From Chloroflexota bacterium (GTDB lineage: Bacteria; Chloroflexota; Limnocylindria; P2-11E), in the NCBI GenBank assembly GCA_005889405.1, contig VBFY01000013.1:1-40343 (forward strand): 40,343 bases of DNA, given 5' to 3'. The notes beneath the pieces were generated by a model. That model saw only the letters and a program-made list of their open reading frames with translations, was not told the origin of the DNA and made no database searches. Shown piece after piece: positions 1 through 35,354 of this stretch. The position numbers and the translations under genes were made by a program. Within the stretch, counting starts at the first letter, position 1; every line of letters begins with the position of its first letter.

Positions 1-2003
1 ACATCGACATCCCGGGCTACCTCGAGCTGATGGCGAAGGGCCAGCACGTCGAAGCGGCGCGCCTCGTGAAGGAGGTGCTGCCGTTCCCCTACATGCTCGG
101 ACTCGTCTGTCCCAAGCCGTGCCAGGAGGTGTGCCGCCGCGGGCTGGTCGAGGAGGAGATCGCGATCTGCCAGTGCCACGGCTACACCGGCGAGCTCGTG
201 ATGGAGATGGACGTCGCCCCGACGCCGTTCCCGCAGAAGGTCGCGAGCGGCAAGCGCGTCGCGGTCGTAGGCGCCGGACCGGCCGGCATGACCGCCGCGT
301 ATTACGTCGCGCTCGACGGTCACGCGGTGACGGTGTTCGACATGATGGACAAGCAGGGCGGCATCTGCCGCTACGGCATTCCGGAGTACCGCCTCCCGAA
401 GGTGAAGCTCGACAAAGAGCTGAACTCGCTCTGGCAGCTGCGCGACACGGAGTTCAAGGGCGGCATGAAGCTCGGCCGCGACTTCACCGTGGATCAGCTC
501 CTCGCGCAGGGGTACGACGCGGTGTTCCTCGGCATCGGCGCGTGGAGCAGTAACGCGCTGCGTATCCCGGGCGAGGACCTGCCGGGCGTGATCGAGGCGA
601 TCAACTACCTCCGCCAGAACGCCGAAGGCGATCCCGTTCCGGTGGGGAAGGGCAATCGCGTCGTCGTCATCGGCGGCGGGTTCACGACCTTCGACTGCGC
701 GCGCACGTCGCGACGTCTCGGCGCCGAGGTCACCGTTGTCTACCGGCGCTCGCGCAAAGAGATGGGCGCGCACTACAGCGAGGTCGACGACGCCGAGCAC
801 GAGGGCATCAAGCTCGACTTCTACGCCGCGCCCGTGAAGATCATCGAGAAGAACGGCCGCGTCGGCGGTGTCGAATTCCAGCGCATGGCGCTCGGCGAGC
901 CGGATGCGTCGGGCCGGCGTCGCCCCGTGCCCGTCGAGGGGGCGAACTACACGATCGAGTGCGACACCGTCATCCCGGCGATCGGCCAGATCCCGGTACT
1001 CGACTGGATAGAGCGCGATACCGGCGTTCGCAGGAGCAAGCGCGAGACGATCATCACGAACGGCGCGCTGATGACCGATCGCCCCGGTGTCTTCGCCGGT
1101 GGTGACGCGCAGATGGGCACGCGGACCGTCATCGAGTGCGTCGCGCAGGGCAAGCTCGCGGCGAAGGCCATCGATCGCTACCTGGCCGGCGACGACATGG
1201 CCCGTGTCGCGGAGGACATCGCCGAGGAAGAGCGCGTGCCCGAGCTCATCGACATCGTGCCGTACAAGCCCGAGGAGCCGCAGGTGCGCATGCCGATGCT
1301 GCCGTTCCCCGACCGCGTGCAGTCCTTCCAGGTGATCGAGAACGGCTACACCAAGGACCTCGCCGAGAAGGAAGCCGCGCGCTGCCTCCAGTGCGTGTGC
1401 CCCGATGTTGGACGGTGCCACCTGCAGCGGCTATCGGTCGAGCACGGCCTCACCGACAACCGCTTCCACCGCGCGGAGCCGATCGACTACCACGACTACG
1501 AGTACGACTTCAGCCACGACTTCATCCTTCGTGACCTGAACAAGTGCATCAACTGCACGCAGTGCGTGCGCATCTGTCGCGACGTGATCGGCGCGAACTG
1601 CTACGGCCTCATGGGCGGCGGCTACGACTCGATCGTGACGACGCCGTGGAACGTCTCGCTGTCGTACACCGACTGCGTCTCGTGCGGCGCGTGCGCCGAG
1701 ACGTGCCCGACCGGCGCGCTCATGATGCGCGAGCGCGATCTCCAGACCTACGAGCTCGACATCGTGCGCTGCATCTACTGCGGCGACTGCGTCGAGGTCT
1801 GCCCGCACGGCGCACTCGGCGAAACGCCGAACTTCGAGCTCGCGACGTACAAGCGGTTCGGCGTGACCGTTCTCGCGAAGGAAGAGCTCGCCGTGGCGCG
1901 GACGTGGAAGCCGTCCGAGCAGGTCCCGACCAACGGCGATGGAAAGGGCGGCGTGCGTCCGCCCGAGATCCGCCCGCCGGCTCCGCCGCGCTGGGGCGCC
2001 TGA
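1..2003 (+). CDS. GltD-type FAD/NAD(P) oxidoreductase fused to ferredoxin and NuoI-like Fe-S modules (5' partial)
   Basis: The frame is open to the left edge, and residues before the first ATG (position 30) still match the GltD N-terminal Fe-S domain, so the gene starts outside the window. Domains in order, numbered from that ATG: Cys-rich region with C27, C31, C35, C47 and C49; FAD Rossmann motif GAGPAG near 81-86; a second nucleotide-binding motif (VVVIGGGF) near 212-219; then a C-terminal Fe-S part with CINCTQCVRIC, CVSCGACAETCP and CIYCGDCVEVCP. The first two clusters resemble the ferredoxin region of NuoG/formate dehydrogenase proteins; the last, with the following FELATYKRF stretch, resembles NuoI. 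GltD-family proteins move electrons between NAD(P)H, FAD and Fe-S clusters. Partner and substrate are unknown here; an electron-input subunit for a dehydrogenase, hydrogenase or glutamate synthase is possible. The next gene overlaps its stop codon. Confidence 0.85.
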   Translation, partial: IDIPGYLELMAKGQHVEAARLVKEVLPFPYMLGLVCPKPCQEVCRRGLVEEEIAICQCHGYTGELVMEMDVAPTPFPQKVASGKRVAVVGAGPAGMTAAYYVALDGHAVTVFDMMDKQGGICRYGIPEYRLPKVKLDKELNSLWQLRDTEFKGGMKLGRDFTVDQLLAQGYDAVFLGIGAWSSNALRIPGEDLPGVIEAINYLRQNAEGDPVPVGKGNRVVVIGGGFTTFDCARTSRRLGAEVTVVYRRSRKEMGAHYSEVDDAEHEGIKLDFYAAPVKIIEKNGRVGGVEFQRMALGEPDASGRRRPVPVEGANYTIECDTVIPAIGQIPVLDWIERDTGVRRSKRETIITNGALMTDRPGVFAGGDAQMGTRTVIECVAQGKLAAKAIDRYLAGDDMARVAEDIAEEERVPELIDIVPYKPEEPQVRMPMLPFPDRVQSFQVIENGYTKDLAEKEAARCLQCVCPDVGRCHLQRLSVEHGLTDNRFHRAEPIDYHDYEYDFSHDFILRDLNKCINCTQCVRICRDVIGANCYGLMGGGYDSIVTTPWNVSLSYTDCVSCGACAETCPTGALMMRERDLQTYELDIVRCIYCGDCVEVCPHGALGETPNFELATYKRFGVTVLAKEELAVARTWKPSEQVPTNGDGKGGVRPPEIRPPAPPRWGA

Positions 2004-3121
2004 CGCTCCGCGACCGACTCGTCGCGCGCATCCGCGGGCGCGGGCCGATCACCTTCGCGGAGTACATGGAAGCGGCCCTCTTCGATCCACAGGACGGCTA
2101 CTACACGTCGCGCGTCGCCCTGGGGTTCGAAGGCGACTACCTCACGGCGTCTGATCTCGGGCCGCACTTCGCGCGCGCGCTCGCGAAGGCGTTCGTCGAT
2201 CTCTGGACGCAGCTGGGCAAGCCCGCGGCCTGGGATCTCGTGGAGGCCGGCGCCGGCCGGGGCGTGTTCCTGCGCGACGTGCTCGGAGCGCTCGAGCGGG
2301 AGCGGCCCGAGGCGGCGAGGGGCGCGCGACCCACGATCGTCGAGGTCTCACCCCGGTTGCGGGAGCAGCAGTCCGCCGCGCTCGCGGGTCGCGATCTGCG
2401 GTGGGCGTCGGACGCGAGGGCCCTCGCGCCGGTGCAGGGCGTCATCTTCGCGAACGAGGTCCTCGACGCGTTCCCGGTGCACGTGCTCGTGCGGACGGCC
2501 GACGGCGTGCGCGAGGTGTTCGTCGAGGAGCGCGGCGGCGTGCTCGCCGAGACGCTCCGCGCGCCCAGCCAATCCGATCTCGGTTGGCGCGTACCCGAAC
2601 GGCTCCCGCAGGGCGGCCGGTGGGAGGTGAGCCCCGCGGCGGAGGGTTGGGTCGCGAGCCTCGGACCCGCGCTCACCAGCGGCTACGTCGTGTTCGTCGA
2701 CTACGGCGGCGACGAGAACGAGCTGCTCACACGGCTGGGCGCCGGGACGCTCCGCGGTTTCTCGCGCCACCGGCTCATCAGCGATCCATACGGCGAACCG
2801 GGCGCGCACGACCTCACCGCGAGCGTCAACTTCACCGCGATCCGTCGTGCCGCCGAGGGCGCGGGCTTCGTGTTCGCGGGACGCGCGACGCAGCGTGACG
2901 CACTCATCGCGCTTGGCATCCGCGAAGCCACCGCGCGCGCCGAGACGCCGATCGAACAGCTGCGCGCGCTCGGTCGCCGTTCCGCGATCGACACGCTGCT
3001 AGACCCGAACGGCTTCGGCGCGTTCGAATTCGTGTGCTTCGCGAAAGACGCGCCGACCGACGGGCTGCGCATGTTCGCGGGAGCGCGCTCCGACGCTACG
3101 GGTTCTGGTTCGCGTCGATAA
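2000..3121 (+). CDS. SAM-dependent methyltransferase, MidA/NDUFAF7 family
   Basis: About 373 residues, the usual size for the family. The N-terminal ITFAEYMEAALFDPQDGYY segment and the following DYLTASDLGPHFARAL are characteristic MidA/NDUFAF7 signatures. The SAM-binding loop is DLVEAGAGRGVF (about residues 79-90), followed by the conserved FANEVLDAFPVH. In mitochondria this family methylates an arginine of the complex I subunit NDUFS2 during assembly; bacterial substrates are mostly unproven. The gene follows the Fe-S fusion gene with an overlap, which fits a shared redox role. Start: conserved family sequence begins before the first ATG (2066), and no ATG, GTG or TTG lies at the right place, so CTG at 2000, overlapping the upstream stop (CTGA), is my best guess. 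The start is uncertain. The 3' end overlaps the convergent lipoprotein gene by 26 bp. Confidence 0.85.
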   Translation: MTLRDRLVARIRGRGPITFAEYMEAALFDPQDGYYTSRVALGFEGDYLTASDLGPHFARALAKAFVDLWTQLGKPAAWDLVEAGAGRGVFLRDVLGALERERPEAARGARPTIVEVSPRLREQQSAALAGRDLRWASDARALAPVQGVIFANEVLDAFPVHVLVRTADGVREVFVEERGGVLAETLRAPSQSDLGWRVPERLPQGGRWEVSPAAEGWVASLGPALTSGYVVFVDYGGDENELLTRLGAGTLRGFSRHRLISDPYGEPGAHDLTASVNFTAIRRAAEGAGFVFAGRATQRDALIALGIREATARAETPIEQLRALGRRSAIDTLLDPNGFGAFEFVCFAKDAPTDGLRMFAGARSDATGSGSRR

Positions 3122-4677: not shown

Positions 4678-5145
4678 CTATCTCTTCGCAGCCGACGTTC
4701 CTTTTGGCGTCGTCGGGCGGACGGCGGTCGCGAACGATGAAGCGGTCGTCAGTTCTGCTGGTGCCGTCCCCCGCCGCAGCGGCGATCCGAAGCGGATGAG
4801 GTTCCCGTCGGGATCCTTGTGCGAACCCTCACGTTTGCCGTAATCAAAGTCCTCGGGCTCGACAAGTTCGACACCTGCGCCTCTCCACTCCTCGGCGAGC
4901 GCGTCCGCGTCATCCACGTGCATGTAGATCGATCCGCGGCCCACGCGCTCGGCATCGACGCCTGGTCCCGCGAGATGGATCGTCAGATCGTTGCGATGAG
5001 CGAACGCGTATCCCGCGTCATGATGCGAGGTACTAAAGCCCAACTTCTCATAGTGGGCGACCGAGCGTGCAACGTCTGAGACCACGAAGATCGGCTCGAC
5101 GCTGACCACACCTCGCACACCCAAATCATAGGATTCGAGGCCCAT
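4678..5145 (-). CDS. VOC (glyoxalase/bleomycin-resistance fold) family protein
   Basis: A 155-residue protein that opens with VEPIFVVSDVARSVAHYEKLGF, the classic first beta-alpha unit of the vicinal oxygen chelate fold. Its second half carries GSIYMHVDDADALAEEW and ends the fold with KDPDGNLIRFG, also hallmark VOC segments. Such proteins are single-domain glyoxalases, dioxygenase-like enzymes or antibiotic-binding resistance proteins, and sequence alone does not settle the substrate. The His/Glu metal positions cannot be assigned reliably without alignment. The ~25-residue tail is Ala/Thr-rich and probably disordered. The ATG start has a GGGGACGGAG stretch just before it. Confidence 0.85.
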   Translation of the reverse strand: MGLESYDLGVRGVVSVEPIFVVSDVARSVAHYEKLGFSTSHHDAGYAFAHRNDLTIHLAGPGVDAERVGRGSIYMHVDDADALAEEWRGAGVELVEPEDFDYGKREGSHKDPDGNLIRFGSPLRRGTAPAELTTASSFATAVRPTTPKGTSAAKR

Positions 5146-5164
5146 CTCCGTCCCCGAATTTGCC

Positions 5165-5629
5165 CTAACCCTTCGTCGCGGACTTGCCCTTCGTCTTCCC
5201 GCGGCTCGCCCTTGCGGCCGGCGCCGCCGCGACGCGCGCGCTGCGCTTCGTGGCGTGCTCTTTCACCCCGTTGAGCAGCTCCTGTACATCGAACGGCTTT
5301 CGAAGCGCCATCCTGGCGCCGAGCTCGCGGAGCTGCGGCCGCAGCGTGTCCATGTCCTCGGTCGCGGACACGACGATGACCGGGGGCTGACGGTCCGGCT
5401 CCATCTCCGCGCGATGGCGGAGGAACTGGATGCCGTCGGCGCCGGGTAGGAAGAGATCGAGTAAGACGAGGTCGACCGCCGCGTCGCTCTCCAGGATGCG
5501 CAGCCCTTCCTCGGCGTCGGGCGCCAGCGTGACCTCGTAACCGTTGCTGCGGAGGATCGTCTCGATCAGCCGGCTGGTGTTCTCGTTGTCCTCGACGACC
5601 AGGATGTTCTGCTTCTGGGTGCTTTCCAT
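5165..5629 (-). CDS. Single-domain response regulator (CheY-like receiver)
   Basis: A 154-residue protein made of one receiver domain and a basic tail. The acidic pocket is E13-D14, the phospho-acceptor is D57 in LVLLDLFLP, the switch Ser is S87 (VVSATED) and the conserved Lys is K110 (LRKPFD). All the residues needed for phosphoryl transfer are therefore present. No output domain follows; the last ~35 residues are Ala, Arg and Lys rich (RASRGKTKGKSATKG) and could bind nucleic acid or be disordered. No histidine kinase is nearby, so the partner is unknown. No good ribosome binding site is visible upstream of ATG 5629. Confidence 0.9.
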   Translation of the reverse strand: MESTQKQNILVVEDNENTSRLIETILRSNGYEVTLAPDAEEGLRILESDAAVDLVLLDLFLPGADGIQFLRHRAEMEPDRQPPVIVVSATEDMDTLRPQLRELGARMALRKPFDVQELLNGVKEHATKRSARVAAAPAARASRGKTKGKSATKG

Positions 5630-5674
5630 CGGGCCAGTCTGAAAGATTGGTCAAGCGCGCGTCGAATGGCCGGC

Positions 5675-5965
5675 TCAGGCCGGTCGGGAGAGCTGCTTCT
5701 CGGGATCCTCGTTCACCATCAGGCCGTGCCCGCCGTCGACCGGATCGACAAGCTGCCAGCCGTCCAGCTCGAGCTCCAAGAGCCATTCCGCGAAGTCGCG
5801 CAGCATGAGCGACGCCTCCGTCAGGGTCTCGGCCTCGTCGGCGACCCACTTCACGCACAGGCTCTCGAGCCGTGCCTCAAAGTCCTCCTCGCCCAGCTCG
5901 CCGGCGATGTCCGCCGCCTCGCGCGGCGTCAGCAGCCGCGGCTTCCCGTTGTCTTCGGCCCGCAT
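5675..5965 (-). CDS. Small acidic hypothetical protein
   Basis: A 96-residue acidic protein with no family I recognise. The start is chosen by a strong Shine-Dalgarno: GGAGG then TGAGGAA directly before ATG 5965, clearly better than the ATG at 6007. The N-terminal LTPREAADIAGELGEEDFEARLESL stretch looks alpha-helical, and the C-terminal part (LDGWQLVDPVDGGHGLMVN) looks like a short beta hairpin. It is divergent from the SPFH gene and downstream of nothing obvious, so context gives little help. The convincing ribosome binding site and non-random amino-acid pattern make it a likely real gene. Confidence 0.65.
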   Translation of the reverse strand: MRAEDNGKPRLLTPREAADIAGELGEEDFEARLESLCVKWVADEAETLTEASLMLRDFAEWLLELELDGWQLVDPVDGGHGLMVNEDPEKQLSRPA

Positions 5966-6090
5966 TTCCTCACCTCCGACGCGCTCGTCGGAGCGCGATG
6001 GAGACATCGGCGGCGCCTTGAGCGTTCATTACACCTTCACCTGCGGATGCTTTACTGGGGCGAGCAGCTGTCCACGCGAGGAGGGAATGG

Positions 6091-6930
6091 ATGTCCATCA
6101 GGGTGGCCCAGGGGCGGTCCCCGGCGGGACCGGCCATCGGTTTCGGCGTCGTCGGCATCGCCGCGTTGCTCGTGCTCATCATCGCGATCTTCGGGTCGTT
6201 CACGCAGGTCGGGGTCGGCGAGGTCGGCATCGTGAAGCACTTCGGTGCGATCGACACCGACCACCCGGACGTCTTCGACCCGGGCATCCACACAAAAGTC
6301 CCGTTCCGTGACGACGTGGTCATCTTCGACACACGCATCCAGAAGGAGCAGGTCGATTCCAGCGCCGCGTCGAAGGATGGCGTCACCATCCACTCGACGA
6401 TCACGATCAACTTTCACATCGAGGCCGCCAAGGCGCCGCTCATCCTTCAGAACATCGGCGCGAACTACAAAGAGCGCATCATCGACCAGCAGATCCAGCA
6501 GGCCTTCAAGGACGTGACCGCCCAGTACGCCGGTCTCGAGCTGATCCAGAAGCGTGAGGAAGTCGCCCTCAAGGCGAAAAGCGTCCTGAAGGACAAGCTC
6601 ACGCCCTACTACATCGTTGTGGACGAGTTCACGATCCCGAACTACGAGTTCCCGAAGGAGTTCAACGACGCGATCCTCGCGACGCAGGTCGCGAACCAGC
6701 AGAACCTGCAGGCCAAGCAGCTCCAGGACAAGGCGCGCACCGAGGCCGAGACCGCGCTGATCGTCGCGCAGGGTCTCGCGAACGCTCAGAAGGCGCAGGC
6801 GACGACGCTGACCCCGGAGTACCTGCAGCTCCAGGCGATCAACAAGTGGAACGGCCAGCTGCCCCAGTACCTCACGCCCAACACGCCCCTGCCGTTCATC
6901 GGCACGACCCCGACGGCCCCGGCGAGGTAG
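6091..6930 (+). CDS. SPFH/band 7 (prohibitin-like) membrane protein
   Basis: A 279-residue protein with one N-terminal transmembrane segment (about residues 17-36, FGVVGIAALLVLIIAIFGSF). An SPFH domain follows: VGVGEVGIVKHFGAI, then the FDPGIHTKVPFRDDVVIFDTR segment typical of prohibitin/HflC proteins. A long helical region rich in Gln, Ala and Glu (about 190-245) probably forms the coiled coil used for oligomerisation. The ending QLPQYLTPNTPLPF is also common in this family. Such proteins build large membrane microdomain scaffolds and often modulate FtsH-type proteases. The ribosome binding site GAGGAGG precedes ATG 6091. The next gene starts 2 bp after the stop. Confidence 0.92.
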   Translation: MSIRVAQGRSPAGPAIGFGVVGIAALLVLIIAIFGSFTQVGVGEVGIVKHFGAIDTDHPDVFDPGIHTKVPFRDDVVIFDTRIQKEQVDSSAASKDGVTIHSTITINFHIEAAKAPLILQNIGANYKERIIDQQIQQAFKDVTAQYAGLELIQKREEVALKAKSVLKDKLTPYYIVVDEFTIPNYEFPKEFNDAILATQVANQQNLQAKQLQDKARTEAETALIVAQGLANAQKAQATTLTPEYLQLQAINKWNGQLPQYLTPNTPLPFIGTTPTAPAR

Positions 6931-6932
6931 CC

Positions 6933-7103
6933 GTGGCCGCTCTCGAGATCGTGATGGTCGCGGCCGCCGTGCTGCTGCTTATCACGCTGTTCATGTACCT
7001 CTGGCAGCGCCTGGGGCTGATGGGCGCGGACCACGCCCACCGGTCACCCCCGCACAAGCACCTGGATATCCCGCCGCACGACCACGACCGCCTGGGGCCC
7101 TAG
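6933..7103 (+). CDS. Tiny single-pass membrane protein with His-rich tail (56 aa)
   Basis: From GTG 6933, 2 bp after the SPFH stop codon, this frame encodes a hydrophobic helix (about residues 4-24, ending LITLFMYLWQRLG) and a C-terminal tail with seven His residues (ADHAHRSPPHKHLDIPPHDHDRLGP). The histidine spacing suggests metal binding. Tight coupling to the SPFH gene suggests translational coupling and a partner role in the same membrane assembly; this is inference. I know no named family. A shadow ORF is unlikely because the frame has a clean hydrophobic-then-polar pattern. Confidence 0.6.
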   Translation: MAALEIVMVAAAVLLLITLFMYLWQRLGLMGADHAHRSPPHKHLDIPPHDHDRLGP

Positions 7104-7139
7104 CGATCGCGGCACGCGCTCTGCTGCCACCCTCCCGGC

Positions 7140-7427
7140 ATGGAGCGCCTGGACGTTGGCGACGAGATCGCGGTCGACGAAGCCTGCGCGCGCTGCGCGA
7201 CCCCTCTGGTGGCGCCGGCCAGCGTCGTCCGGCAGGACGGCGAGCTCTTCTGCTGCGCGAGCTGCGCCAGGGCTGCCGGGGGCAGAGTCGGGCTCGTCGG
7301 CCGAGGCTGCGCTCACTGCGGCGCCCCGATCGTCGACCGCGCCACCGCCGTCACATCCGACTCGCGCTTGTTCTGCTGCGCCAACTGCGCCGTCGCGCCG
7401 CGCGACGTCGAGCCGCCGATCCGGTAA
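7140..7427 (+). CDS. Small protein with duplicated Cys4 metal-binding module
   Basis: A 95-residue protein built from two copies of one module: CxxC (C16, C19) then FCCASC (C38, C39, C42), and CxxC (C57, C60) then FCCANC (C79, C80, C83). Spacing between the pairs is the same in both halves and the flanking residues match (LFCCxxC), so an internal duplication is clear. Each half can form a zinc-ribbon or treble-clef-like site. Likely roles are metal binding, redox sensing or protein-protein contact, with nothing specific visible. No Shine-Dalgarno is seen before ATG 7140. It lies between the SPFH pair and the bactofilin, all in one direction. Confidence 0.65.
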   Translation: MERLDVGDEIAVDEACARCATPLVAPASVVRQDGELFCCASCARAAGGRVGLVGRGCAHCGAPIVDRATAVTSDSRLFCCANCAVAPRDVEPPIR

Positions 7428-7596
7428 CGCCGCTGCAACGCCGGCTCGGCGTTTCTTGCCCCACTAGTACTGGGGTGACGTTCTAGGAAATCGCGCGTTG
7501 AGGGGATAGTGTCCCGACTTACGTTCAAGAGATCGAGCGGTCCTGCGCGTCCGTCGACGGCGCCGGTGTGGCGTCCCGCCGAAGCGCCGGAACCCG

Positions 7597-7623
7597 CCAA
7601 CACTGCCAACACCGCCAACACCG
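7597..7623 (+). repeat. Short tandem repeat, 9-bp unit, three copies
   Basis: Three near-perfect copies of AACACYGCC lie in the open frame upstream of the preferred bactofilin start. If translated they would give Asn-Thr-Ala repeats, so they may mark a variable N-terminal linker or untranslated leader. Confidence 0.5.
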
Positions 7624-7667
7624 CTGATTCGGGCCGCAAAGAGGAAGCTTCGGAAGGGAACAAGACC

Positions 7668-8096
7668 ATGCAGCAGCGAGACACACGTGACTACTCGGCA
7701 CCGCGGGAGCACACGACGGGGAGCTCGGGCGACCTGAACGCCCTCCTCGGCAAGGGCTCCGAGTTCGAGGGCAAGCTCGCCTTCGAGGGCAAGGTCCGGA
7801 TCGACGGGACGTTCTCCGGTGAGATCTCTACCAACGACCTGCTCATGGTCGGAGACGGCGCTAAGGTAACGGCCGAGATCAGCTGCGGGACGGTCATCGT
7901 CGAGGGCGAGGTCATCGGCAACATCAAAGCGACGTCAGCCGTCGAGCTGCGCCGCCCGGCGAAGGTGCACGGCGACATCACCACACCGTCGCTGGTGATC
8001 GAGAAGGGCGTCGTCTTCGAAGGCCGTTCACGGATGGACGAGCTTCAGTCCTCGAACGTCGTTCCGATCTACGCGTCCGCCGAACCCGGCGAGTAG
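7668..8096 (+). CDS. Bactofilin
   Basis: From ATG 7668 this is a 142-residue protein. Its core, from GKGSEFEGKLAFEGKVRIDG to about residue 122, shows the regular glycine and hydrophobic pattern of the right-handed beta-helix of bactofilins. These polymerise without nucleotide into membrane-associated filaments used in cell shape and polar organisation. The ~26 residues before the core are disordered, as usual. The frame stays open upstream to a GTG at 7509, which would add a 53-residue Pro/Ala/Thr-rich segment. I prefer the ATG because of the GGAAGGGAA stretch before it and the normal family length, but the longer form cannot be excluded. Confidence 0.85.
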   Translation: MQQRDTRDYSAPREHTTGSSGDLNALLGKGSEFEGKLAFEGKVRIDGTFSGEISTNDLLMVGDGAKVTAEISCGTVIVEGEVIGNIKATSAVELRRPAKVHGDITTPSLVIEKGVVFEGRSRMDELQSSNVVPIYASAEPGE

Positions 8097-8105
8097 CAAA
8101 GCCAT

Positions 8106-8123
8106 AGACGCCGTTTCTGGCGT
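8106..8123 (+). other. Hairpin between bactofilin and pentapeptide-repeat genes
   Basis: The 6-bp perfect stem GACGCC/GGCGTC encloses the loop GTTTCT. No T-tract follows, so this is not a typical Rho-independent terminator. It lies right before the ATG of the next gene and could shield its start. Confidence 0.35.
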
Positions 8124-8127
8124 CCTC

Positions 8128-8832
8128 ATGTTCGACGGCGTCACGATCCGTGACGCCGACTTCCGGCGCGCCACCTTCGACGCGGTCGCGCCGCAGGGCT
8201 GCGCCTTCGAGCATTGCGACTTCCGCGGGCAGACGCTCGACCGCCGTTTCCAACCCCTGTTCTCTTCCCGGCGGCGGAGCGTCTTCCGCGATTGCCGCTT
8301 CGACGAGGCCGACCTGCGCGCGGTCCGCCCGGGCCAGGCGCGCTTCGAGCGCTGCCGTTTCGACAACGCGAAGATCGACGGCTGGGAGTCGTTCACCGCC
8401 GAGTTCATCGACTGCACGTTCTCCGGCCGGATCGCGAACGTCCGCGTCTACGGCCGGCCCTGGGGCGCGGGAGCGGCGAACCTCGACCCCATGCGCAAGA
8501 TCAACGAGTTCCGCGGCAACGACTTCCGGAAGGCCGACCTCGTCGGCGTCACGTTCGTGCACGGCATCGACGTCGGCGCGCAGCGCTGGCCGCAGGGTCC
8601 CGAGTACGTCGTGCTCGACAAGATCCACCAGCGCATCGCGAAGGCGCGGGTCACCGTCCTCGACTGGCGCGAGCACCCCGCCCGCGAAGAGGCCCTCGAG
8701 ATGCTCCAGTCGGCGGCGCAGCTCTACTCGAACCAGATGACCGTCATCGGTCGCCGCGTCGAGGAGCGCTGGTCCGCCCCGGCCGCGGTGCAGGAGCGCG
8801 TCTGGGACACCCTCGCCCGCTCCATCGCATAG
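8128..8832 (+). CDS. Pentapeptide-repeat-like protein
   Basis: A 234-residue protein. The first ~150 residues repeat a five-residue pattern with Phe or Leu at the centre: DADFRRATF, CAFEHCDFRG, SVFRDCRFDEADLRAV, ARFERCRFDNAKI, AEFIDCTFSG, NEFRGNDFRKADLVGVTF. This is the signature of the quadrilateral beta-helix of pentapeptide-repeat proteins, here rich in Cys and Phe. The last ~80 residues are helical and unlike the repeat. The family includes DNA mimics that protect gyrase and many proteins of unknown role; no specific function can be given. The gene converges on the ABC exporter ATPase with an 11-bp gap. Confidence 0.75.
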   Translation: MFDGVTIRDADFRRATFDAVAPQGCAFEHCDFRGQTLDRRFQPLFSSRRRSVFRDCRFDEADLRAVRPGQARFERCRFDNAKIDGWESFTAEFIDCTFSGRIANVRVYGRPWGAGAANLDPMRKINEFRGNDFRKADLVGVTFVHGIDVGAQRWPQGPEYVVLDKIHQRIAKARVTVLDWREHPAREEALEMLQSAAQLYSNQMTVIGRRVEERWSAPAAVQERVWDTLARSIA

Positions 8833-8843
8833 GCCTCTCGCCG

Positions 8844-9803
8844 TTAGGGCCGCGTTTCCAGATAGATCCGCCGGACGACATCGTCGATCTCCGGCTCCTC
8901 GACGGTTAGATCGCGAAGATTCGCACGCGTAGCGACCGCAGCCGCGAGCTGCGCGGCGTTCGTGCGCGCGCGCTCGAACGCGATCCACTGGCGCGGGCCC
9001 TCTACCTTGATGACGCGTCCGCCTTCCACCTCGAGCGGTCCCTGCGGCTCCTCGAGATCCACGACCAGAACGCGCTCCGTCCCGTAGCGCTCCTTCAAGG
9101 CGTTCACGTCTCCGTCGTAGATCAGGCGTCCGTGGTCGATGATCAGGATGCGCGAGCACAGCCGCTCGATATCGGCGAGGTCGTGCGTCGTGAGCATTAC
9201 AGTGACGCCCCGCTCGCGGTTGGCGCGGATCAGGAACTCGCGCACGCGCTGCTTGGCCACCACGTCCAGGCCGATCGTCGGCTCGTCCAGGAACAAGATC
9301 TCCGGGTCGTGGAGCATCGCAGCCGCCAGCTCCCCGCGGATGCGCTGACCGAGCGAGAGCTGGCGTACCGGAGTGCGAATGAACGGATCAAGCTCGAGCG
9401 CCTCGCGCAGCGAGGCCAGTGTGTGGCGGTAGCGGTCCGCCGGCACTCGGTACATGTGTCGCAGGAGCTCCAGCGAGTCGACGAGCGGCAGATCCCACCA
9501 GAGCTGGACGCGCTGTCCGAACATCACGCCGATCCGCCGCGCGAGAGCGATGCGCTCGTCCCAGGGCACTAGGCCCCCGACCGACACGCGGCCGGCCGTC
9601 GGCACGAGGATCCCCGTGAGCATCTTCACCGTGGTCGACTTGCCGGCGCCGTTCGGCCCGATGTAGCCGAGGATCGTCCCGCGCTCGACGGAGAAGGTCA
9701 GATCCCGTACGGCCTGGACGGTGATGCGGTCTCGCCGGAGCAGTCCCGCCGACCGGTGGACGACGAAATCCTTGGCCACACCCTCGAGCTCGATGAGCGG
9801 CAT
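8844..9803 (-). CDS. ABC-2 type exporter, ATP-binding subunit
   Basis: A 319-residue nucleotide-binding subunit. The Walker A motif is GPNGAGKST, the signature is LSLGQR, Walker B is ILFLDEPTIGLD and the switch His sits in LTTHD. Length and the extra C-terminal ~80 residues fit the group of ABC-2 ATPases (COG4586-like) whose partners are two different permeases, as found here. Substrate is unknown; relatives have been linked to export of toxic organic cations and antibiotics. It starts 2 bp after the stop of the second permease gene, so the three genes form one minus-strand operon in the order permease, permease, ATPase. Confidence 0.92.
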   Translation of the reverse strand: MPLIELEGVAKDFVVHRSAGLLRRDRITVQAVRDLTFSVERGTILGYIGPNGAGKSTTVKMLTGILVPTAGRVSVGGLVPWDERIALARRIGVMFGQRVQLWWDLPLVDSLELLRHMYRVPADRYRHTLASLREALELDPFIRTPVRQLSLGQRIRGELAAAMLHDPEILFLDEPTIGLDVVAKQRVREFLIRANRERGVTVMLTTHDLADIERLCSRILIIDHGRLIYDGDVNALKERYGTERVLVVDLEEPQGPLEVEGGRVIKVEGPRQWIAFERARTNAAQLAAAVATRANLRDLTVEEPEIDDVVRRIYLETRP

Positions 9804-9805
9804 CG

Positions 9806-10618
9806 CTATCCGCCCGCGCTCTGGTAGTGGCGCACCGCGAAACGCCAGACGGTCGACGCGACGACCGCCGCCGCGAGCGCGACAACCGGCGACGCGACCT
9901 GCAGAACAGCCGGCAAACCGAGCGGATCGGTCTTGCCAAGGACGTGAAGCGCGGGGAAGTACGCGATGAAGGCCATCGGCACGAAATAGCCGAGGAATCG
10001 GCGCAGCCAGCGGTCGAAGATGTTCATCGGATATTGGGCGAGGAACGCGCCGCCATAGGTGAACGCGTTCGCCGCCTCGCGACCCTCGACGGTCCAGAAC
10101 GCGATGCAGATGACCGCGACCCAGACCGAGCCGTAGATCAGGACACCCGAGGGAACGGTGAGCGCGAGCACGAGGGCGCGGTCCGGCGTCCAGTCGATCG
10201 CGAGCGTGTTCAGCGCGTACCCGAGCACGAGTAACGCCTGAGCGACGCGCCCGAGCCGGCGTAGCTGGAAGTCACCGGTGATGACCTGGAACAGCGTCCC
10301 CTTCGGACGCACCAGCATGAGGTCAAAGTTCCCATCGCGGATCAGGGCCGGAAAGCCATCGAGGTGGCCGATGACCAGATCGGTGAACGCGAACGAGAGC
10401 GTCGCGAGCGCGTAGAGCAGCGCCACCTGCGCGACGCTCCAGGTGCCCAACTGCGGGACGTTGCTGAAGATGACGAGGATCGCGACGAAGTCGAGGAACG
10501 ATACGAGGAATGCCGCGACGGTCTCGATCGCGAATGACGTCCGGTACTGGAGCTGCGCCCGCACGCGCGCGGCGATCAGCAAGCGATATAGCGACAGCGA
10601 CTCCCGGAGCTCAGCCAC
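9806..10618 (-). CDS. ABC-2 type exporter, permease subunit (second)
   Basis: A 270-residue membrane protein with about six hydrophobic helices and the pattern of COG3694-like ABC-2 permeases: an N-terminal helix pair after LYRLLIAARVRAQLQY, then LLYALATLSFAFTDLVIGHLDGFPALIRDGNFDLMLVRP-type segments. The conserved loop LIRDGNFDLMLVRPKG corresponds to the coupling region of ABC-2 permeases. GTG 10618 is chosen because the frame's longer upstream part only shadows the neighbouring permease gene; it overlaps that gene's stop by 8 bp (GTGGCTGA), which implies translational coupling. It works with the ATPase encoded 2 bp downstream. Confidence 0.88.
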   Translation of the reverse strand: MAELRESLSLYRLLIAARVRAQLQYRTSFAIETVAAFLVSFLDFVAILVIFSNVPQLGTWSVAQVALLYALATLSFAFTDLVIGHLDGFPALIRDGNFDLMLVRPKGTLFQVITGDFQLRRLGRVAQALLVLGYALNTLAIDWTPDRALVLALTVPSGVLIYGSVWVAVICIAFWTVEGREAANAFTYGGAFLAQYPMNIFDRWLRRFLGYFVPMAFIAYFPALHVLGKTDPLGLPAVLQVASPVVALAAAVVASTVWRFAVRHYQSAGG

Positions 10619-11417
10619 CCTGCACCACCAGCCGTCGGACGCCGAACGCGAAGAGGCGCTCGGCGATGACGAGGAGCACGACCGCCCAGACGAGCTGGAC
10701 GGCGAGGGTGCCGAGGACCTCGCCCCCCGTGGCACGACCGATGAAGATGTCGATCGGAAGCTGGACCATCGACGGGAACGGGGTCGCGTGCGCGAGGGCC
10801 GCAAGCCAATCGGGGAAGAACGCCACCGGGACGATGAAACCGGAGAAGAGGTTGACCGCGACCGCTCCTAGGAACATGGCGCCGCGGTGGTCCGTGGTCC
10901 AGAAGGCGACGATGTTGTAGATGGCACGGAACCCGTAGCTCACGACGATCGCGAGACCCACGCTGATGACGAACGCGAGCCACTCCAGCGGATCCGCCGG
11001 CAGCACGAGCCTGAACACGAGCGCGCCGACGAGGAGCGGCGGCAACCCGCGGTAGATGGCGTGGTACAACGCCCGCCCGAGGTCGAACGCGAGCGACGCG
11101 CGCAGCGGATGCACCGGTCGGATCAGGTCTCCGGCGATGTCGCCGGACCGGATGCGGAGCGCGAGGTCCTGCCAGCCGAAGATGTAGATCGTCATGATCA
11201 GTGCCTGGCCGAGCCACACGTAGGTGACCGTGGCGCTCGCGTCGTAGCCGGCGATGTGGTCCCGCTGCTCGAACAGGGCTAAGAGGATGAACGCGCGCAT
11301 GAAACCGAAGACCGTGTTCACGAAGACTCCGGCGATGGTGGCGGCCGGATACGCCGCGTAGCGCGCGTAACCGCGCCTCGCGAGCTCCCAGTCAAGTCGA
11401 AGCGTGTCCAGACCCAC
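10611..11417 (-). CDS. ABC-2 type exporter, permease subunit (first)
   Basis: A 268-residue membrane protein with about six hydrophobic segments, matching the COG4587-like permease that pairs with the previous two proteins. The middle loop IRSGDIAGDLIRPVHPLRASLAFDLGR is the equivalent of the coupling loop in its partner permease, and both share the R(S/D)G(D/N)xxxxLxRP pattern, so the two permeases are probably ancient paralogues. The start is GTG 11417; the frame continues far upstream but only as a shadow of the antisense thrS gene. It is the first gene of the exporter operon and is divergent from the thrS T-box leader. Confidence 0.85.
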   Translation of the reverse strand: MGLDTLRLDWELARRGYARYAAYPAATIAGVFVNTVFGFMRAFILLALFEQRDHIAGYDASATVTYVWLGQALIMTIYIFGWQDLALRIRSGDIAGDLIRPVHPLRASLAFDLGRALYHAIYRGLPPLLVGALVFRLVLPADPLEWLAFVISVGLAIVVSYGFRAIYNIVAFWTTDHRGAMFLGAVAVNLFSGFIVPVAFFPDWLAALAHATPFPSMVQLPIDIFIGRATGGEVLGTLAVQLVWAVVLLVIAERLFAFGVRRLVVQGG

Positions 11418-11450
11418 GGAAGGGGAGAGCCTATCGGTCGCGGCCTGCGC

Positions 11451-11456
11451 TATGCT
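11451..11456 (+). promoter_or_regulatory. Putative -10 box for the thrS leader
   Basis: TATGCT lies just upstream of the T-box leader and divergent from the exporter operon. No good -35 box is evident. Placed by position only. Confidence 0.3.
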
Positions 11457-11462
11457 TCCTTT

Positions 11463-11670
11463 CTCGCGACGACGCGGACAGAGCCGCACGCAGTTGCCGT
11501 AAGCGAGCCCGGGAGGGTGTGAGCCGGGCCGGCGGGCGATGTGGAGACCACCGCCGAGCGATGTGGGTGGGCCCCATACAGCCCGAACGAGAGCCTCTTC
11601 GGAGGAACTCGGGTGGAACCGCGGGAGCAGCGCCTCTCGTCCCGAAAAGCAGGGACGAAGGCGCTTTTTT
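11463..11670 (+). promoter_or_regulatory. T-box leader of thrS, specifier ACC (Thr)
   Basis: The T-box core GGGTGGAACCGCGG is at 11611-11624, immediately followed by a Rho-independent terminator, and thrS starts 20 bp later. In stem I, GAG-ACC-ACCGCCGAG (11544-11558) lines up exactly with GAA-TTC-GCTCCCGAG in the second T-box of this window, which places the specifier codon ACC (threonine) at 11547-11549. Uncharged tRNA-Thr would pair with the specifier and with the TGGA of the T-box, forming the antiterminator and allowing thrS expression. A stem with loop TTCG (GAGCCTC/GAGGAACTC, about 11591-11610) precedes the T-box sequence. The 5' boundary is approximate. Confidence 0.9.
11630..11670 (+). 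terminator. Rho-independent attenuator of the thrS T-box
   Basis: The stem is GCGCCT-C-TCGTCCC with GGGACGA-AGGCGC (one bulged C), loop GAAAAGCA, followed by six Ts at 11665-11670. Its 5' arm begins right after the T-box motif, as expected for the mutually exclusive terminator. Confidence 0.9.
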
Positions 11671-11690
11671 CGTGCCCAAGGGAGAACGTC

Positions 11691-32346: not shown

Positions 32347-34110
32347 ATGACCGTCGCGCGTCCGATCGTCGCCGTCATCCCGTTCGGCGCGCGCGGGACC
32401 ACACCGCGGGCGGGGGCATGGGCGCGCCAGCTCGCCGCGCGCCTTGTGGAGCGCTTCGCGGCGGACGACGCGGTCGATGTGCGGCCGGTCTTCCTGGTCG
32501 CGCTGCCCGAGGCCGCGAGCGAGGCCGGATACCTTGTCTTCGGGTCGTCGCCGGACGCTAGCCTCGCCGCTGAATACGGCCGATCGCTCGGCGCGACCTA
32601 CGCCCTGACGGGTATCTATCGCGAGGACGGCGGCTCGCGCCGGCTCGAGGCGACGCTCGTCGATGTTGGATCCGGAACGGTCCGGGCGACGCGGTCGATC
32701 GCGATCGCTCCCGGCACGCTCGCGACGGCTGAGCCGGCCCTGGCTCGCTGGCTCGCGCGAGCCGTCGGCGCCAACGCCGCGTCCGCCTCGGACGTGCCGA
32801 CCGCGGCGAACGAGACCGCGTACGCAGCCATGCTCGAGGGCATGGACGAAGAGGTGACCACGACGCTCTTGCGTCAGAGCGACCAGGCCGGAGCGGACGA
32901 GGCGATCGGGCGGGCGCTGGAGCGTTACCTCGCAGCGCTGACCGCCGACCCAGAAGCTGCCCCCGCCGAGGAGCGGCTTCTCGTCCTGGCGGCGGAGTCC
33001 TTGGAGCGCGGCGACATCGGTCGGCAGATCCGTGCGCTCGAGGACCTCATCGTGATCCGGCCTCGGTCGTGGCGCGCGCACTACATCCTCGGAAAGCTTC
33101 GCGCGGAGGCCGGCCACACAAGCGAGGCGATCGTCGCCCTCGAGCACGCGCACGCGTTGCACCCGCTGTCCGACCCGGATCTCGTGCGCCTCGCCGAGCT
33201 CTACGCGAATGCCGGTGCGAGCGCATCCGCGTTCGGGCACCTGCGTCGCATCGCTCCCACGAGCGCGGCCTACGGTCCGGCGCAGGAGCTCGCGGCAATC
33301 ATCGCGCTGCAGCGTGGCGACCTCGAAGCGGGACGCGCCGCCTTCGAGCGCGCAGTGGCGGCCGGCGCTTCGGGATGGGAGCTGCACGCGTCGTACGGCG
33401 CGGCGCTGCACGCGCGCGGCGAGAACGTGGAGGCCATCCCTCACTACGAAGCGGCGCTCGCCGCGAACGGTCCCGCGATCGTACGACTGAATCTCGCTCG
33501 CGCGTTGTTCGAGACAGGGAACAGGGAGCGCGCGGCGGGCGAGCTTGACAAGCTGCTCGAGAGCGAGACGAGCGGCGAGATCGCCGGACAGGCACGACGC
33601 CTGCGCTTCGGGATCCGCCACGCCGATCTCGAGCAGGCGCTCGAGTCCGCGGGGCGGGGCGCGGTCGAAGGAGACGCGACCCGTTTCGCCGAGGCGCGAT
33701 CCGCCTTCGACTCCGCCCTCGCCGCGGAGCCCGACCTCTGGGAGGCTCACTTCGGACTTGGCCTGCTCGCGCGGCACCGCGGTGACGCGCAGACCGCGCT
33801 CGCGTCGTTCGCGCGGGTCCTGGAGCTCTGGCCCGAGCATCCGGACGCGCTACACGAGCTCGGCGTCGCGCTGCTCATGGCGAACGACGTCGATCAGGCC
33901 GTCGGCGCGCTCGAGCGGGCAGCCGCGCTGCGGCCCGCCGAGCCCGCGTACCTCGCGGATGCCGGATTCGCTCAGATGCGCGCCGGAGACCTCGCCGCGG
34001 CGCGCGAGCGGCTCGAGCATGCAAGTGCCCTCGACGCTGATGACCCCATCACGCGTGCTTACCTCCAGGAGCTCGATCGCGTGCAGGCCACCGTCGGGAA
34101 AGGCACGTGA
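32347..34110 (+). CDS. TPR-repeat protein with TolB-like N-terminal domain
   Basis: A 587-residue protein without an obvious signal peptide. The first ~130 residues (PIVAVIPFGARG, LAARLVERFA, YGRSLGATYALTGIYRED) resemble the nucleotide-independent alpha/beta domain often found in FlgO/TolB-N-like adenylate-cyclase-associated proteins. From about 220 to the end come at least eight TPR-type helix pairs (for example WRAHYILGKLRAEAGHTSEA, WEAHFGLGLLARHRGDAQTA, PDALHELGVALLMANDVDQA). It is probably a scaffold for protein complexes. It lies between tyrS and NDH-2, and its stop overlaps the NDH-2 start (GTGA), so the operon may couple it to the respiratory enzyme. No catalytic residues are visible. 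Confidence 0.78.
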   Translation: MTVARPIVAVIPFGARGTTPRAGAWARQLAARLVERFAADDAVDVRPVFLVALPEAASEAGYLVFGSSPDASLAAEYGRSLGATYALTGIYREDGGSRRLEATLVDVGSGTVRATRSIAIAPGTLATAEPALARWLARAVGANAASASDVPTAANETAYAAMLEGMDEEVTTTLLRQSDQAGADEAIGRALERYLAALTADPEAAPAEERLLVLAAESLERGDIGRQIRALEDLIVIRPRSWRAHYILGKLRAEAGHTSEAIVALEHAHALHPLSDPDLVRLAELYANAGASASAFGHLRRIAPTSAAYGPAQELAAIIALQRGDLEAGRAAFERAVAAGASGWELHASYGAALHARGENVEAIPHYEAALAANGPAIVRLNLARALFETGNRERAAGELDKLLESETSGEIAGQARRLRFGIRHADLEQALESAGRGAVEGDATRFAEARSAFDSALAAEPDLWEAHFGLGLLARHRGDAQTALASFARVLELWPEHPDALHELGVALLMANDVDQAVGALERAAALRPAEPAYLADAGFAQMRAGDLAAARERLEHASALDADDPITRAYLQELDRVQATVGKGT

Positions 34111-35354
34111 CGAAGCGCGTCGTCATCGTGGGCGGCGGGTTCGGCGGTCTGCACCTCGTCCGTCACTTGGAGAAGCGCCTGCGGCCCGGCGAGGCGGAGG
34201 TCACGCTGGTCGACCGCTCCAACTTCTCGCTCTTCACACCGCTGCTCTACCAGGTCGCGACCGGCGAGCTGCCGCCCCACGCGGTCGCGTATCCGCTGCG
34301 CGTGCCGCTCGCGAAAGCCGGCTTCCGTTTCCTTCGGACCGAGGCCCTGGCGATCGACGTCGAGAAGCGAACGGTGCGCACCGAGGACGGAGAAATCGCC
34401 TACGACCACATCGTCATCGCGCCGGGCAGTGTGACGAACGACTTCGGGATCCCCGGCGTGAAAGAGCACGCGCTCGTCGTGAAGTGGCTGGAGGACGGCC
34501 GCGCGGTGCGCCACCGCATCCTTTCGACCTTCGAGGACGCCGCGCTGATCCCGGATGCCGCGCGGCGGCGCGAGCTGCTTTCCTTCGCGATCGTCGGCGC
34601 GGGCCCGGTTGGCGTCGAGCTCTCGGCGTCGATGCGCGACCTCATGGATCACACGCTGCGCGGAATCTACCCGAGCATCGACGTGCGGCGCGAGCCCTCG
34701 ATCACGCTCGTCGACGGCGCCGATCGCGTCGTGCCGGCCATGGACGAGCGCCTGTCCGCGATCGCGCAGCGGCGGCTCCAGCAGCTCGGCGTGCGCATCA
34801 TGCTGCGGACGCTGGTGTCCGAGGTGGGGGACCGTTCGCTTCGGACGAAAGATGGAACGACGCTGACCGCGAACACCGTCATCTGGGCCGGCGGCGTGAA
34901 GACCAACCCGATCGTCGCCGCGGTCGACCTGCCGCACGCCAAGGATGGCCGGCTGATCGTGGACACATCGTTCCGCGTCGGTGGGCGCGACGACGTGCTC
35001 GCGCTCGGTGATGCCGCGTACTTCGAGCAGGACGGAAAGGCACTGCCGATGCTCGCGCAGGTGGCGGTCCTGGAGGCGCCCGCCGCGGCGGCGAACGTCG
35101 CGCGGCTCGTGCGCGGCGAGCCGACGCAGCCGTACGTCTACAAACGAAAGGGCGACCTCGTCGCCCTCGGGCGGACGAGCGCGGCGGCGGAGTTCGCGCG
35201 ACCGATCCACTTCGTGCTCTCCGGTCTACCGGCGTGGACGGTGTGGCGGACGAACTACCTCATGCAGCTCGTCGGCGGCCGCAACCGCGGCACGCTGCTC
35301 GTCGAGTGGCTGCTGTCCTACTTCTCGCGCCGGATCGTCGCGGACATCACGTGA
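34107..35354 (+). CDS. Type II NADH:quinone oxidoreductase (NDH-2)
   Basis: A 415-residue flavoprotein that oxidises NADH and passes electrons to quinone without pumping protons. The FAD-binding motif is GGGFGG (9-14), the SLFTPLLYQVATGELPPHAVAYPLR stretch is the family's quinone/FAD signature, the NADH-binding Rossmann fold contains IVGAGPVGVELSAS, and AGGVKTNPI and LALGDAAYF are the second FAD contact. The C-terminal part (LMQLVGGRNRGTLLVEWLLSYFSRR) is the amphipathic membrane-anchoring helix region. GTG 34107 overlaps the preceding stop. It could complement the complex I-like activity suggested by genes at the window's left end. Confidence 0.94.
   Translation: MTKRVVIVGGGFGGLHLVRHLEKRLRPGEAEVTLVDRSNFSLFTPLLYQVATGELPPHAVAYPLRVPLAKAGFRFLRTEALAIDVEKRTVRTEDGEIAYDHIVIAPGSVTNDFGIPGVKEHALVVKWLEDGRAVRHRILSTFEDAALIPDAARRRELLSFAIVGAGPVGVELSASMRDLMDHTLRGIYPSIDVRREPSITLVDGADRVVPAMDERLSAIAQRRLQQLGVRIMLRTLVSEVGDRSLRTKDGTTLTANTVIWAGGVKTNPIVAAVDLPHAKDGRLIVDTSFRVGGRDDVLALGDAAYFEQDGKALPMLAQVAVLEAPAAAANVARLVRGEPTQPYVYKRKGDLVALGRTSAAAEFARPIHFVLSGLPAWTVWRTNYLMQLVGGRNRGTLLVEWLLSYFSRRIVADIT

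Follow-up and report, generated by a model that had tools for sequence, protein, structure and literature searches.

The gene that opens the window (the whole stretch of 40,343 nucleotides of Chloroflexota DNA analysed here) encodes a fusion protein, called G' below, which would occupy the position of NuoG in a variant of respiratory complex I. The variant likely operates as a proton-pumping NAD(P)H:quinone oxidoreductase whose electron entry has been relocated to a GltD-type FAD in NuoG; no biochemistry or expression data are available. The entry of NADH at FMN is regarded as the defining front end of complex I, and where exceptions are known, the whole NADH module is gone and electrons come from ferredoxin, F420H2 or flavodoxin.

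The window opens contig C25 in a 3.05 Mb, 114-contig assembly (G000, the own genome in what follows). Translation of its forward strand gives a third frame that is open from base 3 to a stop codon at 2001-2003 and codes for 666 aa. The contig edge cuts off the 5' part of the frame, which needs no start codon because the contig begins inside the gene. Full-length relatives have about 802-809 aa and begin 138 residues upstream with a NuoG-type [2Fe-2S] domain. The features of the window discussed here are as follows.

3..2003, + strand: nuoG-like fusion gene (G'), the last 666 of about 804 aa, from comparison with full-length relatives.
3..209, + strand: second half of the GltD-type [4Fe-4S] domain (Fer4_20; Pfam PF14691, residues 1-69).
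177-179, + strand: His59 of the window frame, which is His197 in the relative L035; aligned to 8oh5_C.
255..1151, + strand: FAD and NAD(P)H Rossmann folds of the GltD type (Pfam PF07992, residues 85-383, and alignments).
741-749, + strand: YRR, residues 247-249, of the nucleotide-binding motif GGGFTT...VYRRSRKEM.
1383..1418, + strand: CxxCxCxxxxxC cluster motif, residues 461-472, as in StnC and at the place of the N5 site of NuoG; cysteines invariant in 48/48 sequences.
1521..1721, + strand: NuoG/HydA-like ferredoxin domain with CINCTQCVRIC and CVSCGACAETCP (PF22117, Fer4_Nqo3, residues 507-573); invariant cysteines.
1728..1859, + strand: second half of NuoI with the motif RCIYCGDCVEVCP and NFELATYKRF (TIGR01971, profile 69-112 of 121).
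2000..3121, + strand: MidA/NDUFAF7-type methyltransferase gene (Methyltransf_28; PF02636, 9.9e-55), directly 3' of G'.
34107..35354, + strand: NDH-2-type NADH dehydrogenase gene (PF07992, 7.3e-48; NDH2_C, 4.8e-05), above the cut-off in the genome scan.

A sequence-only reading of the window had claimed that GltD, NuoG-like and NuoI-like modules are joined in a single frame. This claim held, as all the motifs it quoted are present and both Pfam and NCBIfam agree. The GltD-type FAD/NAD(P)H module is followed by three CxxCxxCxxxC motifs and then by a NuoI-like end, with CINCTQCVRIC at residues 515-525 of the window frame, CVSCGACAETCP at 558-569, CIYCGDCVEVCP at 590-601 and FELATYKRF just 3' of CIYCGDCVEVCP. 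The Pfam matches are the second half of Fer4_20, Pyr_redox_2 (2e-31), Fer4_Nqo3 (507-573) and a 4Fe-4S dicluster (558-604), while NCBIfam models of the GltD family cover residues 2-527 (3e-137) and the NuoI model TIGR01971 matches residues 576-619 through positions 69-112 of its 121 (8.9e-18). The molybdopterin-like domain is absent after the Fe-S part. G' is 79-97% identical among relatives within its own family and 47-51% across the class; given this identity and the invariant cysteines, the motif and domain pattern is well beyond chance.

The missing 5' end of the gene lies on contig C49, the last 30 bases of which are the first 30 of the window. C49 supplies the first 147 residues of G', which cover the [2Fe-2S] domain of the NuoG type and run into the GltD Fe-S domain. 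The sequence-only reading had proposed inspecting the upstream genes, and these proved to be complex I genes (nuoB, nuoD, a partial nuoI-nuoE and nuoF). They are arranged on C49 as nuoB, nuoD, nuoI'E', a NuoF-like gene, a further ORF and the N-terminus of G'; the nuoI'E' product is a 238-aa protein in which the first half of NuoI is joined to the helical part of NuoE. Contig C17 of the own genome holds nuo A, C, H, J, K, L, M and N, and C49 holds B and D. The C49-type gene set was also found on one contig, with nuoD intact, in G002, a genome of the same genus with a 97% identical fusion. The own nuoD is about 47 bp shorter than that of G002 near its 3' end (L103, about 11897-12012) and its frame is broken; this deletion could be real or an assembly error, the latter being a possible fault of the draft. 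In the own genus, nuoF' and G' are also separated by an additional ORF with membrane-like stretches (L103, 13954-14561, on C49; L237, 5259-5951), for which there is no room in L079 (G001).

In relatives from other families of the class, the genes form a single run, A-B-C-D-H-I'E'-F'-G'-J-K-L-M-N (L086, L087, L092, L095, L132, L200 and others). G' lies inside this complete nuo run and thus stands where nuoG would be. The own genome and G032, a 99%-complete, 7-contig genome of the own class, each contain one NuoA and one Complex1_51K (PF01512) protein, both of which belong to the variant, and no second NuoA or NuoF was found in either the own genome or this near-complete sister genome. The gene order and the absence of another NuoF are thus direct observations. 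In G041 and G053 (about 91% complete), NuoA, PF01512 and G' are all missing together. The possibility of a canonical complex I elsewhere in the own genome was examined and rejected, as the other NuoD/NuoH-like genes sit in a hydrogenase-4-like cluster on contig C50. That cluster (L104, 6084-13286) comprises NuoL/M/N-, H-, CD-, I- and B-like genes and resembles hydrogenase-4/group 4 energy-converting complexes. A MidA/NDUFAF7-type gene, which follows G' in the window, is also found near G' in L079. In mitochondria, NDUFAF7 serves the assembly of complex I; the gene here is tied to complex I by position and homology only.

The old NADH entry of this complex is degraded. Asp94 (A. aeolicus numbering) of the NADEMEPG loop of NuoF, which serves FMN and NADH, is lost in all 38 NuoF' loci compared, a set that includes one genome counted twice, and Glu95 is lost in 32 of the 38. 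Glu95 is strictly conserved in NuoF, lies in the NADH site and bridges to the nicotinamide through water (PMC6560083); both residues are present in the canonical NuoF of the same phylum (L226, L228, L230) and of E. coli. One of the four N3 cysteines is missing in 18/38 loci, and all four are intact in family f1, in the Ktedonobacterales-type loci and in L051 and L089. The GRGGAG loop and the GGEE motif are mostly retained, so that binding of FMN by NuoF' cannot be excluded; the loss of FMN is inferred only. The nearest matches of NuoF' are subunits of the HydB/StnB type (224 bits, versus 175 for the best NuoF). In f1 and in the relatives L051 and L054, NuoE' is without the thioredoxin-like domain; in those inspected f3-f5 loci that retain it, N1a has lost its second cysteine pair. 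Three marks of canonical NDH-1, namely D94/E95 of NuoF, a NuoE with the four cysteines of N1a and a NuoI with two motifs, are therefore not met. From the residue losses, it is likely that NuoE' and NuoF' are a reduced scaffold in which NADH oxidation has probably been lost. The sequence-only reading had spoken of an unusual electron-input design. Because the normal NADH entry is degraded, this can be extended by inference to a GltD module that is probably the sole entry and not an additional port.

The GltD-type entry, by comparison, appears intact. In a set of 48 G' sequences, a few of which come from the same genomes, no change occurs in any of the tallied Fe-S cysteines where the region is present, nor in the FAD-site Arg268 (Arg239 of StnC) or the Rossmann glycines. 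G' meets the criteria for a GltD-like flavoprotein with its FAD and NAD(P)H Rossmann motifs and an N-terminal Fe-S domain. YRR is where GltD, NfnB and StnC bind the phosphate region of NADPH. The arginine of this motif is present in 43/48 sequences; the five exceptions carry YYR and are mostly extra tandem or orphan copies. The YRR motif and the likeness to StnC favour oxidation of NADPH by G', an inference for which there is no assay. His197 (residue 59 of the window frame) aligns with Lys170 of StnC in 8oh5_C, a ligand of the FAD-proximal cluster. The ligand of this cluster (C7) was reported to be strictly conserved as Lys170 in StnC and as Glu in NfnB (PMC10482914). Histidine occupies the place of Lys170 in 48/48 G' sequences, and lysine in the Stn-like protein of L190. 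The FAD-proximal cluster of G' may hence be His-ligated and possibly tuned toward a higher-potential acceptor, although this is inferred.

NuoI is divided over two genes, a feature that goes beyond what had been read from the window. Each NuoI' (about 35 loci, with a few genomes represented twice) has a single CxxCxxCxxxCP motif, and the canonical NuoI controls of L228 and L230 have two 4Fe-4S motifs. The TIGR01971 profile is split accordingly, positions 1-72 matching NuoI' on C49 and positions 69-112 the tail of G'. The sequence-only reading would have been refuted by an ordinary ferredoxin tail without relation to NuoI; this was checked and not borne out, as the tail of G' matches the very part of the NuoI profile that the short NuoI' is without. 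The simplest and preferred interpretation, which is inferred, pairs motifs 1 and 2 of G' in the manner of NuoG/StnC and has motif 3 build the N6a/N6b dicluster jointly with the single motif of NuoI', so that this dicluster spans two chains. It is preferred because motifs 1 and 2 pair in StnC and the two halves of the NuoI profile join end to end. It is also possible that motifs 2 and 3 of G' alone pair into the NuoI dicluster, which Pfam and blast allow. An AlphaFold2 model of G' built with 20 close homologues was poor (mean pLDDT 48.9, pTM 0.38) and therefore lends no support to cluster distances or to a shared dicluster site.

The pump, in turn, is preserved. The own genome keeps the N2 cysteines of NuoB, the HPSTHG quinone motif of NuoD and the checked charged residues of NuoL, M, N, H and K, and G032 likewise has the N2 cysteines, the quinone-site motif of NuoD and the charged pump residues. 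With NuoA, B, C, D, H, J, K, L, M and N present along with their key residues, membership of the complex I superfamily is met.

These observations suggest a mechanism in which the subunits would assemble into one complex. In G', a GltD-type module with two [4Fe-4S] clusters, FAD and an NAD(P)H site is inserted between the [2Fe-2S] and ferredoxin-like domains of NuoG, the second half of NuoI is fused to the C-terminus and the molybdopterin-like domain is missing. NAD(P)H would donate a hydride to the GltD FAD, from which electrons would pass along the clusters of the GltD module and those of the NuoG type to a dicluster shared by the C-terminus of G' and NuoI', and then via N2 in NuoB to quinone, powering proton pumping by NuoH and J-N as usual. 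In StnC, the C-terminal clusters that correspond, C1/C2, were described as a dead-end branch; in G' this branch would be the live path. The domain architecture and the pattern of residue loss and conservation are established, and the assembly, the direction of flow, the NADPH preference and the shared dicluster site are inferred. The same distinction applies to the earlier suggestion that this protein could couple NAD(P)H chemistry with an Fe-S wire of the complex I type: gene context supports the link, and the chemistry itself is an inference.

Chloroflexota are common in soils and fresh water, and carriers of the variant are a large group of their uncultured members. At E <= 1e-180, G' was detected in 84 of 350 evenly drawn Chloroflexota genomes, distributed over every one of the five own-class families encountered and over f13, f21, f33, f35 and f38; the f38 genome G142 is taken to be the Ktedonobacterales MAG CP126532. 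One of the 84, G183 (L190), has a true Stn-like protein. Its Stn-like set (contig C29, 7396-16680) consists of NuoE, NuoF and a GltD-NuoG with Lys at the Lys170 position and is followed by a second NuoE-F-G-like set, in a Chloroflexota genome of 0.9 Mb. The inspected loci of f13, f21, f35 and f38 show a cassette B-I'E'-F'-G'; in the genomes checked, A'-C'-D'-H' are located elsewhere and a separate canonical 14-subunit operon is also present. One concern is that Ktedonobacterales-type genomes retain canonical complex I and have the variant genes scattered over two loci, which counts against the main reading. In L182 (G350, C1:1110000-1129000), three tandem copies of G' lie beside a B-I'-F' cassette (4984-12646), and in both additional copies YRR is replaced by YYR, suggesting an altered substrate. 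A bolder reading is that Chloroflexota harbour a widespread second kind of complex I, an NADPH:menaquinone pump with GltD-FAD entry in NuoG, a two-polypeptide dicluster and a His-ligated FAD-proximal cluster, which is the only complex I of the own class and stands beside the canonical enzyme elsewhere. This could as readily prove wrong as right.

Several other explanations need to be weighed. NADH might still enter at the FMN of NuoF', with the GltD module as a second port forming a built-in transhydrogenase or a confurcating/bifurcating site that mixes NADH and NADPH electrons as Stn does. In favour of this are the best scores of NuoF' against HydB/StnB-type subunits, the retained GRGGAG and GGEE motifs and the loci with four N3 cysteines (f1, the Ktedonobacterales type, L051, L089). 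However, D94 is lost in 38/38, E95 in 32/38 and one N3 cysteine in 18/38 loci, the N1a ligands or the entire thioredoxin domain are gone from NuoE', and bifurcation in Stn requires the [2Fe-2S] cluster of StnA (PMC10482914), which makes a second port unlikely. The complex could also run mainly in reverse, using quinol and the proton-motive force to reduce NADP+ at the GltD FAD as an NADPH-generating device. Complex I is reversible in principle, and some genomes of the own class have an NDH-2 candidate for NADH oxidation, including the one in the window, possibly a separate NADH route to quinone outside the nuo operon. An NDH2_C domain was found in most genomes of the own family and is missing from G032, from f5 and from most of the f3 genomes sampled. 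Yet G032 has no complex I-type NAD(P)H dehydrogenase besides the variant, and no NDH2_C domain was detected there, so that the variant probably must run forward in this genome, and quinol-driven NADP+ reduction is energetically steep; this reading is likewise improbable.

A soluble, electron-bifurcating transhydrogenase of the Stn type, unrelated to complex I, is suggested by the fact that G' is nearest in sequence to the StnC-type chains 9bov_A and 8oh5_C. However, G' lies within nuo operons with membrane subunits, has no FdhF-like domain (802 versus 1172 aa) and carries His for Lys170 in 48/48 sequences, whereas the Stn-like L190 of the same phylum has Lys; further, neither StnA nor StnB is intact. 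The reading is very unlikely in general, being largely refuted by gene order, and for the window protein it is ruled out by gene order, His197 and the missing domain. A rival that remains possible is that the GltD port uses NADH and not NADPH, in which case the complex would be an ordinary NADH:quinone oxidoreductase whose flavoprotein has been exchanged. G032-like genomes, which have no other NuoF or NDH2_C match, need some way to oxidise NADH, and five paralogues, mostly extra copies, have YYR for YRR. Against this stand the YRR of 43/48 sequences and StnC, the nearest characterised relative, which oxidises NADPH. Since neither a further NuoF nor an NDH2_C protein turned up in G032, NADH use or a transhydrogenase must be considered.

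The fusion of GltD and NuoG as such is known from StnC/NsoC/NfnA (PMC10482914, PMC7483475), and as a subunit of complex I no earlier description of it was found. The GltD-like proteins covered in the consulted passages of the review PMC8097209 do not include complex I, a GltD-type complex I is not mentioned in those of the 2025 survey of complex I variants PMC12361115, and the open-licence literature searched contains no description of a complex I with GltD, including in Limnocylindria and Ktedonobacteria. With a front end rebuilt from an unrelated NAD(P)H flavoprotein on an intact pump, complex I would become an entry point that takes NADPH or has dual specificity. The variant is a natural test of the modularity of the electron wire, of the need for cluster N1a and FMN and of a ferredoxin fold shared by two subunits. 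It is also a warning that pipelines equating a complete complex I with an NADH dehydrogenase may mispredict these bacteria.

Among known systems, the nearest relatives of G' are StnC of the Sporomusa ovata Stn transhydrogenase (8oh5; PMC10482914, PMC7483475), NsoC/NfnA (9n5u) and 9bov_A. StnC and G' share, in the same order, the [2Fe-2S] domain, the GltD insertion with its FAD and NADPH site, the CxxCxCxxxxxC motif and two further 4Fe-4S motifs, and their alignment spans query residues 32-734. StnC has an inactive FdhF-like C-terminal domain and feeds the FMN in StnB of a soluble tetramer, whereas G' has no FdhF-like domain, a third motif from NuoI, His in place of Lys170 and a complex I operon with a degraded NuoF. 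Membership of Stn is therefore not met: Lys170 and the FdhF-like domain are absent, and the StnA/StnB-type partners are degraded; the domain order agrees. GltD (the small subunit of glutamate synthase), NfnB and the N-terminal half of DPD resemble G' in the FAD/NAD(P)H fold and in having two low-potential clusters, and differ in the acceptor. With canonical 14-subunit complex I (NDH-1), the variant shares NuoA, B, C, D, H and J-N, the N2 ligands and the pumping residues, but its NuoE/F entry for FMN and NADH is degraded, GltD lies within NuoG, NuoI is spread over two genes and there is no molybdopterin-like domain. The 11-subunit complex I and Fpo-type enzymes combine the membrane and quinone modules without an NADH module and take F420H2 or flavodoxin as inputs (PMC12361115). 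While those enzymes do without NuoEF or NuoEFG, the variant keeps rebuilt derivatives of NuoEFG, and its input would be a GltD flavoprotein inside NuoG.
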